Notes under the pieces: model-generated | The model's input: the letters and a program-made list of their open reading frames with translations, nothing else | Told to the model about the DNA's origin: nothing | Database searches by the model: none | Assembly: GCF_027925145.1 (NCBI RefSeq) | Contig: NZ_AP027130.1 | Location: forward strand, 434,001-498,000 | Reading direction: 5' to 3' | Origin: Thermodesulfomicrobium sp. WS | Lineage (GTDB): Bacteria; Desulfobacterota; Desulfovibrionia; Desulfovibrionales; Desulfomicrobiaceae | DNA length: 64,000 nucleotides | Part shown: piece after piece, positions 41,917-45,476 of the stretch | Numbering within the stretch: the stretch's first letter is position 1 | How the letters are laid out: each line of letters begins with the position of its first letter | Made by a program: the position numbers and the translations under genes

Positions 41917-42621
41917 CTACTGCCCGAGCCACGGGGAAAGCAGGAAAAAGAGGCCCAAGGCGGCGATGCCCACGCCAGCTAGACGGCGGAATGCGGTGCT
42001 GCCTCGTTGCCAGCGGGCGTTTGCCACCAGGCGGCGGATCCAGGCGGTGCAACTGCCGGCCACGGCTATGGGCAGGCAGTGGCCGAGGCCAAAGGCAAGG
42101 ATGAGCAGCGTGCCTTGGGCGATCTGCCCCTGCACGGTGATGATGGCGAGTATCGGGGCGATGAACCCAAAGGTGCAACTTCCGGAGAGCACGCCATAGG
42201 CAAGGCCCAGGATAAGCGCGCCGAAGGGACCGCGCAGCCGCAGACGGCCCAGGAGCCCTCCGTGCAGGGAGCAGCGGGCAAGGCCGAGCATGTCCAGCGC
42301 CACCCACAGGAGCACCAGCCCCACCGCCATGGCCCAGTAGGGACTCACTGTTCCCAGCATTTGGCCCAAGGCGGCGCAGATTCCCCCCAGTGCCGCAATG
42401 GTGGTGAAGAGCCCCAGGGTGAAGAGCCCTGCGTAGAACATGGCCTGACGCCCTTCCACCAAGCGTTCTTGGCCAGCCACGTAGCCCACGATCAATGGAA
42501 TGGAAGCCAGGTGGCATGGGCTCAAGAGAACGCTCACCATGCCCCAGGCAAAGGCCCCGCCCACGGCCAGGAGACTGCCGGTCTCCATCCAGGCGGCAAT
42601 GGTCATGAGCAGGGAATCCAT
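41917..42621 (-). CDS. CcdA/DsbD-type cytochrome c biogenesis transmembrane protein
   Basis: A 234-aa protein with six to seven membrane helices. The two redox Cys of CcdA are visible in VLLSPCHLASIPLI (about residue 36) and SGSCTFGFIAP (about 149). It moves reducing equivalents from cytoplasmic thioredoxin to the periplasm. Its ATG overlaps the stop of the exported thioredoxin by one base (TAATG), so the pair works as a disulfide-reducing relay. It is controlled from the divergent promoter shared with arsR, which ties the relay to whatever the ArsR protein senses. Confidence 0.88.
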   Translation of the reverse strand: MDSLLMTIAAWMETGSLLAVGGAFAWGMVSVLLSPCHLASIPLIVGYVAGQERLVEGRQAMFYAGLFTLGLFTTIAALGGICAALGQMLGTVSPYWAMAVGLVLLWVALDMLGLARCSLHGGLLGRLRLRGPFGALILGLAYGVLSGSCTFGFIAPILAIITVQGQIAQGTLLILAFGLGHCLPIAVAGSCTAWIRRLVANARWQRGSTAFRRLAGVGIAALGLFFLLSPWLGQ

Positions 42622-43025
42622 TAGTGGACCCCCAGCCGGGCGAGGACCTTTTCGATGGATTCTTGGGGAAAGAACCCTTCGTGGCGCATGATCTCCTTGC
42701 CGGAGGCGTCGTAGAAGATCTGGGTGGGGATGGCCCGAATGCCGAACCGCTCGGTCTGCTCCGGGTGCTGCCAGACATCGATGAACACGATGGCGGCCTT
42801 GCCCTCGTACTTGTGCGCGAGGTTTTCGAGCACCGGGGCCATCATTTTGCAGGGAATGCAGCTTTTGGCGCCCAGATCGAGGACCGTCACCATGCCGGGG
42901 GCGGGCACCGGAACCGGGTCTCCGGACAAGGATGATGATGCGGCCCCTGCCTTCGGCCCGGCAGCAAAGAGCGCCATCCCGACGACCACGAAAAGCCATA
43001 TTCCACGTTGGACCTGGTGCAGCAT
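42621..43025 (-). CDS. Membrane-anchored or exported thioredoxin-like protein
   Basis: A 134-aa protein with a hydrophobic N-terminal leader (GIWLFVVVGMALFAAG, residues 8-23) followed by a thioredoxin domain. The active site is AKSCIPCKMMAPVLENLAHK (CxxC with Ile-Pro) and the cis-Pro loop is GIRAIPTQIFYD. It acts on the outer face, fed by the neighbouring CcdA. GGAGG before ATG 43025 sets the start. Transcription begins from a promoter at 43064-43092 that overlaps an ArsR-type operator. Confidence 0.88.
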   Translation of the reverse strand: MLHQVQRGIWLFVVVGMALFAAGPKAGAASSSLSGDPVPVPAPGMVTVLDLGAKSCIPCKMMAPVLENLAHKYEGKAAIVFIDVWQHPEQTERFGIRAIPTQIFYDASGKEIMRHEGFFPQESIEKVLARLGVH

Positions 43026-43059: not shown

Positions 43060-43077
43060 TTTGGCAATATGGCCAAA
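43060..43077. promoter_or_regulatory. Left ArsR-type operator (thioredoxin-ccdA side)
   Basis: TTTGGC (43060-43065), 6-base spacer, GCCAAA (43072-43077). The site overlaps the -10 and spacer of the minus-strand thioredoxin promoter. The same TTTGGC-N6-GCCAAA is found at 43143-43160 on the other promoter, centre-to-centre 83 bases away. Two identical half-site pairs on both sides of the intergenic region, next to an arsR gene, strongly suggest its binding sites. Confidence 0.72.
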
Positions 43078-43092
43078 AGATTTGTGGGTCAA
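43064..43092 (-). promoter_or_regulatory. Promoter of thioredoxin-ccdA
   Basis: Minus-strand TTGACC (43087-43092), exactly 17 bases, TATTGC (43064-43069), about 40 bases before the thioredoxin ATG. The operator at 43060-43077 covers its -10, so bound repressor would block polymerase. Confidence 0.65.
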
Positions 43093-43117
43093 GGCAGTCG
43101 CGGCGGGTGTCGGGGCA

Positions 43118-43146
43118 TTGACAGCCGAGGCGCAGAGAATTATTTG
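43118..43146 (+). promoter_or_regulatory. Promoter of arsR-permease-thioredoxin-DGC
   Basis: TTGACA (43118-43123), 17 bases, TATTTG (43141-43146), about 30 bases before the ArsR ATG. The -10 lies inside the right operator, a typical arrangement for an autorepressed ArsR gene. Confidence 0.7.
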
Positions 43147-43162
43147 GCCAAATCGCCAAATA
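43141..43162. promoter_or_regulatory. Right ArsR-type operator (arsR side)
   Basis: Extended arms TATTTGGC (43141-43148) and GCCAAATA (43155-43162) form a perfect 8-bp inverted repeat with a 6-base spacer. It contains the same TTTGGC-N6-GCCAAA core as the left operator, overlaps the -10 and ends just before the ribosome site GGAGGT. Confidence 0.78.
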
Positions 43163-43174
43163 TTGGAGGTCGTC

Positions 43175-43525
43175 ATGCAGGAACAAGCCCAGTTGTACCA
43201 GCGGCGTGCGGAGATTTTGAAGGCCTTGGCCCATCCCACCCGGCTGTGGATGGTGGATCAGCTCGCCCAGGGTGAGGTGTGCGTGTGTCAGTTCGTGGAG
43301 GCGGTCGGTGTAGATTTTTCTACGATATCCAAGCACTTGACGGTACTGAAGCGCGCAGGGCTGGTGGAGGACGAGCGTCGCGGCAAACAGGTGTTCTACC
43401 GTTTGCGGATGCCGTGTGTGACGGGATTTTTCCGTTGTGTAGATCAGGTGTTGGACCATTCGGCTGCGGCCGGGATATGCGCCGCCTGTGCGACGGCGAA
43501 GGAGGATTGCCATGAACTGGCGTGA
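43175..43525 (+). CDS. ArsR/SmtB family metalloregulator
   Basis: A 116-aa winged-helix repressor. The recognition region is FSTISKHLTVLKRAGLVEDE with wing RRGKQVFYRL. Before it lies GEVCVCQFVEAVG: the CVC pair at the position where E. coli-type ArsR binds As(III), so a thiophilic metalloid or metal, or a thiol-reactive species, is the likely signal. Further Cys near the C-terminus (CAACATAKEDCHE) could add ligands. GGAGGT sits before ATG 43175. It is divergent from thioredoxin-ccdA and overlaps the permease gene by 14 bases. Confidence 0.92.
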   Translation: MQEQAQLYQRRAEILKALAHPTRLWMVDQLAQGEVCVCQFVEAVGVDFSTISKHLTVLKRAGLVEDERRGKQVFYRLRMPCVTGFFRCVDQVLDHSAAAGICAACATAKEDCHELA

Positions 43526-44813
43526 AGAATGGAAGATGTTGGTTGCCATGGTGGGGGCGTTCGTCGTCTGTTGGTATTTACCGGTGGGCGTGCCGCGTTT
43601 TGATGCCGCAGTGCTCGAGGCCTTCCATCTGGTGAAATGGTATGCCCAGGAGCATGTGCTCTTGTGCTTGGTCCCGGCCTTTTTCATTGCGGGCGCCATT
43701 GGCGTTTTTGTGAGTCAGGCGGCGGTGATGCGCTATCTGGGCGCTGGGGCCAAGAAGGTGCTCGCGTACGGCGTGGCTTCGGTGTCGGGCACGATTTTGG
43801 CGGTGTGCTCCTGCACCGTGCTGCCGCTTTTCGCCGGTATCTACCGCATGGGCGCCGGGCTTGGGCCGGCGTGCGCCTTTCTCTATTCCGGGCCTGCCAT
43901 CAATGTGCTCGCCATCGTGCTCACCGCCCGCATTTTGGGCCCGGAACTGGGTATTGCCCGCGCCGTGGGGGCCGTGGTGTTCAGCCTTGTCATCGGTCTT
44001 TTGATGGGGTTTTTCTTCCGCCAGGAAGAAGGGGAGCGTCTCGCCATGCAGCCCGTGACCTCCGACGAGGAGCCCGTGCGGCCCTTGTGGCAGACCGCCA
44101 TCTATTTTGCCCTCATGGTGGCCATCTTGGTATTCGCCAACTGGGGGCGGCCGCAGGAGGACACGGGGCTGTGGGCCGCTATCTTCGCCGCCAAGTGGTG
44201 GCTCACCAGCGTGGCGGCTGCGGGACTGGCCGTGGTGCTGGTGTCGTGGATGCGGCTTGCGGCGTGGAAGGTGGGGCTCACCGCTTTGGCCACAGCCCTG
44301 ACGGCCGTGGCCTTTCCCCAGGAGCCGGTGGCCGCGTTCACGGTAGGCGTGGTGGGGTTGTCGTGGATGACCAGCGTGGACCCCGGCGAGAGCGGGCAGT
44401 GGTTTTCTACCTCGTGGACGTTTGCCAAGCAGATCCTGCCGTTGCTTTTGGGCGGCGTGCTCGTGGCAGGGTTCCTCTTGGGCCGCGTCGGGCATGAGGG
44501 GATCATCCCTTCTTCGTGGGTGGCCGGCTTCGTGGGCGGAAACTCCCTGATGGCCAATTTCTTCGCCTCGTTCGTGGGGGCGTTCATGTACTTCGCCACC
44601 CTCACCGAGGTGCCCATCGTCCAAGGCCTCATTGGCGCGGGCATGGGCAAGGGGCCGGCCCTGAGCCTGCTGTTGGCCGGTCCGGCTTTGAGTTTGCCGA
44701 ACATGCTCGTCATCGGGAGCATCATGGGGGCGCGCAAGACGGTTGTCTTCGTGAGCTTGGTCGTGGTCATGGCCACGGTTTCGGGATGGGCTTTTGGACT
44801 CTTCTGGACGTAA
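43512..44813 (+). CDS. ArsP-like permease (PF03773-type)
   Basis: A 433-aa membrane protein with about ten helices in two halves. The first half holds the family signature with a Cys pair, TILAVCSCTVLPLFAGIYRM, then ACAFLYSGPAINVLAI. The second half repeats the pattern, EVPIVQGLIGAGMGKGPALS and LLAGPALSLPNMLVIG. Some members export trivalent organoarsenicals; others are uncharacterised. The CSC pair may bind a thiophilic metalloid. GGAGG precedes ATG 43512. It overlaps arsR and is followed by a mini-thioredoxin and a DGC-domain gene. Confidence 0.85.
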   Translation: MNWREEWKMLVAMVGAFVVCWYLPVGVPRFDAAVLEAFHLVKWYAQEHVLLCLVPAFFIAGAIGVFVSQAAVMRYLGAGAKKVLAYGVASVSGTILAVCSCTVLPLFAGIYRMGAGLGPACAFLYSGPAINVLAIVLTARILGPELGIARAVGAVVFSLVIGLLMGFFFRQEEGERLAMQPVTSDEEPVRPLWQTAIYFALMVAILVFANWGRPQEDTGLWAAIFAAKWWLTSVAAAGLAVVLVSWMRLAAWKVGLTALATALTAVAFPQEPVAAFTVGVVGLSWMTSVDPGESGQWFSTSWTFAKQILPLLLGGVLVAGFLLGRVGHEGIIPSSWVAGFVGGNSLMANFFASFVGAFMYFATLTEVPIVQGLIGAGMGKGPALSLLLAGPALSLPNMLVIGSIMGARKTVVFVSLVVVMATVSGWAFGLFWT

Positions 44814-44857: not shown

Positions 44858-45109
44858 ATGACGCACATTCAGATTCTCGGCACCGGGTGTCCCAAGTGTA
44901 TCAAGTTGGCGGAGACCGCCAAGGCGGCGGCGGACGCCCTGGGAATTGCGTATGAGTTGGAAAAGATCACGGACATCAACAAGATCATGTCCTTTGGGGT
45001 GATGATGACCCCTGGACTGGCGGTCAATGGCAAGGTCCTCATGGTGGGCAAGGTGCCGAGCCTGGAGGAGATGAAGACCGTTTTGGCCAAGGAGGCGAAA
45101 AATGTCTAA
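44858..45109 (+). CDS. Small thioredoxin-like redox disulfide protein
   Basis: An 83-aa mini-thioredoxin of the MTH895-like redox-active disulfide type. The active site is GTGCPKCIKLAETAK (CPKC) and the cis-Pro loop is MMTPGLAVNGKVLMVGK. It is cytoplasmic, with no leader. It lies between the ArsP-like permease and the DGC gene and overlaps the latter by 8 bases, so it probably reduces or carries a thiol adduct handled by them. Confidence 0.9.
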   Translation: MTHIQILGTGCPKCIKLAETAKAAADALGIAYELEKITDINKIMSFGVMMTPGLAVNGKVLMVGKVPSLEEMKTVLAKEAKNV

Positions 45110-45476
45110 CTGCCAATGTTCCTGTCAGGGGGCGCCGACCTTGATCTTTGCCTGCTCCGGCGCGGCCGACGTGGGGGCCCTCGCTGATGCCGCGGCCCGT
45201 GCCCTCACCCGGCAGGGCAAGGGCCGTATGTATTGTCTGGCGGGCATCGGCGGTCGGGTGAGCGGTATTGTGGCCACTACCCAGGCCGCGGACAAAATCC
45301 TCGTGATCGACGGCTGCCCTTTGGAGTGCGCCCGGAAGACCCTCGAGGAAGCCGGATTTTCCTCCATGGTGCATGTCCAGCTGCAGGACCTTGGCTTTCG
45401 CAAAGGCGAGAGCCCGGTCACCGAGGAAAACGTGGCGACGGTGATGGACGTGGCCGTTGCCCGCATGGGGTGTTGA
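45102..45476 (+). CDS. DGC-domain putative metal-binding protein
   Basis: A 124-aa protein with an N-terminal CQCSCQG cluster, FACSGAADVGALADAAARAL, YCLAGIGG and the signature VIDGCPLECARKTLEEAGF, which contains Asp-Gly-Cys. The family is annotated as zinc-binding but has no proven job. Its constant company with thioredoxins and permeases suggests a chaperone or sensor for a thiophilic metal or metalloid. Last gene of the ArsR-driven group; lgt follows after 7 bases. Confidence 0.85.
   Translation: MSNCQCSCQGAPTLIFACSGAADVGALADAAARALTRQGKGRMYCLAGIGGRVSGIVATTQAADKILVIDGCPLECARKTLEEAGFSSMVHVQLQDLGFRKGESPVTEENVATVMDVAVARMGC

Follow-up and report, generated by a model that had tools for sequence, protein, structure and literature searches.

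Two palindromes between an arsR-permease unit and a thioredoxin-ccdA unit are predicted operators of the adjacent ArsR-family repressor

Introduction

In Thermodesulfomicrobium sp. WS, a repressor gene of the ArsR family and an ArsP-type permease gene are transcribed away from a thioredoxin-ccdA pair, and the region between the two units contains two copies of one palindrome. This arrangement raises the question whether the palindromes are the operators of the neighbouring ArsR protein, and whether the two gene sets are controlled together. Here we analyze the locus in its 64-kb window, the whole stretch of DNA under study, and in related genomes. Considering the sequence evidence as a whole, it is very probable that the palindromes are operators of the adjacent repressor and that both sides are under its joint control, as predicted.

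Results

Two exact palindromes in one intergenic region

The sequence-only reading had placed TTTGGC-N6-GCCAAA at 43060-43077 and at 43143-43160, the right copy lying within a longer 8-bp repeat. Both copies are exact and the longer repeat, TATTTGGC-CAAATC-GCCAAATA, is present at 43141-43162. The arms of the left operator are 6 bp long, versus 8 bp for the right operator, and the right repeat stops two bases short of the GGAGG of arsR. With zero mismatches allowed, these two copies are the only ones in the window and in the whole genome (2,357,780 bases), and both fall in the same intergenic region. A first-order estimate from the window composition puts the expected number of exact matches at 0.009 in 64 kb and 0.32 in the genome; for the 149-bp intergenic region, using its own composition, the expectation is approximately 7e-6. 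The genome scan for further targets, which the sequence-only reading had called for, returned no additional convincing target. We do not claim a wider regulon because the genomic sites with two mismatches are mostly intragenic and the weak sites occur at the level that composition predicts. Helical phasing or looping between the two operators was considered and set aside. Their spacing is 83 bp here and 73 bp in the same-genus locus L011, about one helical turn apart, and we make no looping claim because the spacing in Desulfomicrobium-like genomes varies from 116 to 126 bp.

Features of the locus, with window coordinates
Feature	Position	Strand	Basis
CcdA/DsbD-type membrane electron carrier, second divergent gene	41917..42621	-	Pfam DsbD_TM 6.1e-11
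Exported-looking thioredoxin, first divergent gene	42621..43025	-	Pfam Thioredoxin 6.9e-14; N-terminal hydrophobic stretch
Left operator TTTGGC-N6-GCCAAA, before divergent thioredoxin-ccdA	43060..43077		exact match
Proposed -10 box TATTGC, inside left operator	43064..43069	-	sequence; TATCGC in L011; 3/6 match
-35 box TTGACC, thioredoxin promoter	43087..43092	-	sequence; conserved in L011
-35 box TTGACA, arsR promoter	43118..43123	+	conserved register in relatives
Proposed -10 box TATTTG, inside right operator	43141..43146	+	conserved -35 plus N17; 3/6 to consensus
Right operator TATTTGGC-N6-GCCAAATA, before arsR	43141..43162		exact match
arsR, ArsR/SmtB-family repressor, 116 aa, presumed binder	43175..43525	+	Pfam HTH_5 5.7e-14
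ArsP-type permease (PF03773)	43512..44813	+	Pfam 1.5e-66; overlaps arsR end
MTH895/ArsE-family thioredoxin-like protein	44858..45109	+	NCBIfam TIGR00412 103 bits, cutoff 62
DGC-domain protein	45102..45476	+	Pfam PF08859 6.3e-30; conserved in neighbourhood

The gene products on either side

The regulator scores 52.2 bits against Pfam HTH_5 (cutoff 22) and 92.4 bits against NCBIfam HTH_metalloreg (cutoff 55), which places it in the ArsR/SmtB family, and the sequence and cross-phylum conservation of the palindrome are consistent with the palindromic operator at its own promoter expected of that family. It falls below the cutoffs for the BigR sulfite sensor (NF040642; 63 bits, cutoff 155) and the TsoR metalloregulator (NF045707; 40 bits, cutoff 115). 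The motifs of ArsP cluster 1, Hv(L/I)xClvPAfFIAG and LAV-C(S/T)C (PMC4435449), are found in the translation of the permease as HVLLCLVPAFFIAG and LAVCSC. In many relatives ccdA co-clusters with arsR, and the usual arrangement has the same genes collinear behind arsR. Published ars-type operons contain the same three redox partners, but mostly together with arsC; no arsC was found in the sequence read around the locus, and the thioredoxin-ccdA pair of this locus is transcribed divergently behind a separate operator copy. The SO_0443-SO_0444 pair of Shewanella oneidensis, involved in Cu/Zn efflux, resembles the locus in that a regulator adjoins a permease touched by the same model family. However, against the SO_0443-SO_0444 permease family, whose cutoff is 300 bits, the window permease reaches only 101 bits, and the regulator of that pair is described as ZntR-like.

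The palindrome accompanies arsR across phyla

Protein similarity was used to gather relatives, drawn from 78 genome contigs as well as genomes of the family; the closest of them belong to assemblies labelled Desulfomicrobiaceae. They were found through peptide patterns that include the recognition helix, and the set is therefore biased toward sharing the operator. Among ArsR relatives in at least nine phyla, YATTTGGY-N6-RCCAAATR lies beside arsR. Because this refined form was derived from the same relative loci, a search with the unchanged 12 fixed bases and a scan of the phylum are the fairer tests. With up to two mismatches to the 12 bases allowed, 42 of the 74 relatives that lie outside the genus have a site within the 130 bp before arsR (shuffled controls: mean 0.92, maximum 4). 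The pattern-only scan, run over 394 genomes of the phylum with no protein query, returned 38 exact sites versus 14 for the reversed control, and 23 of the 29 sites inspected abut an ArsR or ArsP homologue. Within the genus, the right operator is present in L011 and, with one mismatch to the 12 fixed bases, in L012.

The association with arsR is tight. In the 682 kb of relative loci, ATTTGGY-N6-RCCAAAT has 67 matches when one mismatch is tolerated, and 65 of these immediately flank arsR, before or after the gene. Palindromes with permuted arms average 0.7 sites in total over the same DNA. Sites are found before and/or after arsR in 66 of the 73 relatives with full context (before only, 33; after only, 11; both, 22; neither, 7). 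Recurrence beside ArsR orthologues across phyla, and the return of ArsR/ArsP loci by the pattern alone, support the original proposal that the palindrome would be the recognition sequence of the neighbouring ArsR.

Two further features were observed among the relatives. At L067, one of the two exceptions among the 67 sites, an exact operator heads a permease operon and arsR lies about 3 kb downstream (the site is about 2.9 kb upstream of arsR). Many operators, those of L025, L026, L036, L042 and L087 included, have a third half-site (GCAAAT or TCAAAT) behind them as a direct repeat, possibly for a second dimer.

The predicted operators lie over the probable -10 regions

Each operator copy had been described as covering the -10 box of a promoter. 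Both -35 hexamers and their N17 spacings are as first given, and the conserved -35 positions uphold the placement of the operators over the -10 regions; the named -10 boxes, TATTTG and TATTGC, are weak, each matching TATAAT at three of six positions. Measured against the sigma-70 pattern of two hexamers 16-18 bp apart, the -35 boxes are good and conserved, and a consensus promoter scan reported no promoter at either proposed site. TTGACA or TTGACG precedes the start of the operator by 23 bp, with N17 spacing, in the window, in L011 and L012, and in the Desulfomicrobium-like L093-L101. In other phyla TTGACA is at -15 to -10 relative to the operator, and at -15 the central N6 of the operator (TATTTT, TATATT) would itself be the -10 element; in many relatives this N6 is the best -10 match. 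We suggest that the -10 region is covered by the operator at any plausible spacing, the exact -10 being uncertain.

Probable joint control and competing explanations

The sequence-only reading also predicted coordinate control of the two gene sets. Comparison of close genomes is consistent with this prediction, as the left operator is missing where thioredoxin-ccdA is missing. L011 retains both operators and both -35 boxes. In L012/G021, of the same genus, neither thioredoxin-ccdA nor the left operator is found at this place; thioredoxin-ccdA of G021 is located elsewhere and has no operator. The left operator of the divergent form is thus known from two close genomes only, the window and L011. 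In Desulfomicrobium-like genomes, arsR-permease is divergent from arsR2-ArsE-thioredoxin-ccdA, with two operators between them. From these arrangements, joint control is likely here but not universal. Genome G017 carries thioredoxin-ccdA and arsR on separate contigs; there, an operator-like AACTTGGCCAAAAAGCCAAATT (L153:2841-2860) precedes thioredoxin-ccdA, which hints at distant control.

These comparisons also bear on a simpler model, in which ArsR is an autorepressor at the right copy only, thioredoxin-ccdA is constitutive or otherwise controlled, and the left copy is a relic. The shorter left arms and the operator-free thioredoxin-ccdA unit of G021 fit such a model. However, both left arms are exact and are kept in L011, where the only change is one in the spacer, despite the loss of 10 bp between the operators; in L012 the left site is absent together with the genes it would serve, and the Desulfomicrobium-like genomes retain a site before the thioredoxin-ccdA unit. 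We therefore regard control of the right side alone as improbable. The palindromes could instead act at the RNA level, as hairpins that terminate transcription or mask a ribosome-binding site, and the right repeat, which could pair and ends close to GGAGG, is in keeping with this idea. With the -35 boxes as placed, however, transcription would begin downstream of the left repeat, which would then be left out of the RNA. We reject the hairpin reading, for which we see hardly any likelihood, because the arms are invariant in sequence across relatives and are not compensated (at position 7, T is often opposite G), the pattern expected of a protein site.

A different protein might be the main binder, for example the ArsR paralogue encoded at C1:2114250. 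The two proteins are 61% identical, their recognition helices are nearly the same (DFSTVSKHL versus DFSTISKHL), and a related half-site precedes the paralogue's own gene. Against this, the site adjoins an arsR of the window type in genome after genome, which makes the paralogue, or any other regulator, a very unlikely principal binder. The paralogue (C1:2114250-2114534, L106) belongs to the same ArsR subfamily and lacks the permease cluster; its upstream site, TATTTTCTCATTTGACCAAATG, includes a tight CATTTG-AC-CAAATG palindrome, and the paralogue could also bind the operator. The adjacent ArsR remains our preferred candidate for the main binder at both copies.

A second predicted operator after arsR in relatives

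In 34 fetched relatives (for example L039, L044, L058, L061, L073, L173 and L174), an operator lies 12-40 bp past the arsR stop codon. In 28 of the 34, a run of at least five Ts (5-9 T) lies ahead of it, and the gap between run and operator is 5-9 bp, in nearly every case 6-7 bp; such a run precedes 2 of 55 promoter-side operators. The same T-tract spacing is seen at three of four downstream sites in an independent set from the phylum, and a phylum scan for the T-tract plus operator gave 12 hits, similar to its control. No promoter is evident at the downstream operators. No hairpin was found before the T run, the preceding 28 nt folding at -2.9 kcal/mol versus -2.35 kcal/mol in shuffles, so that an intrinsic terminator does not account for the T-tract. 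ArsR on the downstream operator could stall RNA polymerase over the U-tract, ending transcription before the permease gene. In E. coli, ArsR has been listed as one of the proteins that act as roadblocks to RNA polymerase (PMC10310618), which makes a roadblock that releases the polymerase at the U-tract possible. Tentatively, and with more doubt than confidence, we propose that across phyla this ArsR subfamily may put its operator to two uses, one over promoters, as at the locus studied here, and the other as a ligand-released elongation gate. The window has no such downstream element, because arsR and the permease gene overlap.

Conserved cysteines and the inducer

Three cysteines of ArsR are nearly invariant among 102 relatives: C36 (101), C81 (101) and C88 (all 102). 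C38 is replaced in nine. One closely similar known system is ArsR of E. coli R773, in which the gene for a winged-helix repressor likewise heads its own efflux operon, with a palindromic operator at the promoter. Both proteins have a CVC motif at the first metal site, C36 and C38 aligning with Cys32 and Cys34. R773 ArsR requires Cys32-Cys34-Cys37 (PMC11868830), whereas the window protein has CVCQFV, with two cysteines in place of the CxCxxC motif; the equivalent of Cys37 is V41, and C81 and C88 are conserved instead. ArArsR of Arsenicibacter rosenii requires Cys41-Cys80-Cys82, and its Cys43 is dispensable (PMC11868830). The likeness here is that the first cysteine of CVC is needed together with two later ones while the second is dispensable, just as C36 is kept and C38 lost in several relatives. 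By spacing, Cys80 and Cys82 of ArArsR correspond to positions 75 and 77, where the subfamily has no cysteine; the conserved pair, C81 and C88, lies further on and is seven residues apart, in contrast to the CxC pair in the wing region of ArArsR. The arrangement of C36, C81 and C88 matches none of the arsenic-sensing arrangements in the literature compared. Cysteine conservation and the ArsP-type neighbour suggest that C36, C81 and C88 form a three-thiol site for trivalent arsenicals. The sequence-only reading had guessed at As(III) or Zn as the ligand. On balance we lean toward arsenicals as the inducer; other possibilities are zinc, copper, cadmium and a redox signal.

Discussion

From the observed sites, their uniqueness, their conservation with the ArsR subfamily, the conserved gene set and the -35 boxes, we infer a mechanism whose proposed elements are repressor binding, promoter occlusion, the metal ligands and the inducer. 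In the absence of inducer, an ArsR dimer would occupy each operator copy. The right dimer would sit over the -10 region of the arsR-permease-ArsE-DGC promoter and the left dimer over that of the thioredoxin-ccdA promoter, so that with both bound the two units would be off together. Induction would begin when a thiophilic toxicant binds cysteines of the repressor, the best candidates being C36 together with C81 and C88; trivalent arsenic, inorganic or organic, is the most likely toxicant. The ligand-bound dimer would then leave both sites, and the efflux permease and the thiol-redox relay would be made together.

The locus represents an ordinary type of ArsR control, and its predicted operator is well defined. 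An earlier description of this operator was not found in the open literature searched, an absence that is not proof of novelty, and as far as that literature shows the operator is undescribed. A predicted recognition sequence is now available for an ArsR subfamily that spans many phyla, mostly of uncultured anaerobes. It would place an ArsP-type permease and a thioredoxin-CcdA relay together under a single switch, and the operator site offers a ready reporter part toward finding the inducer.
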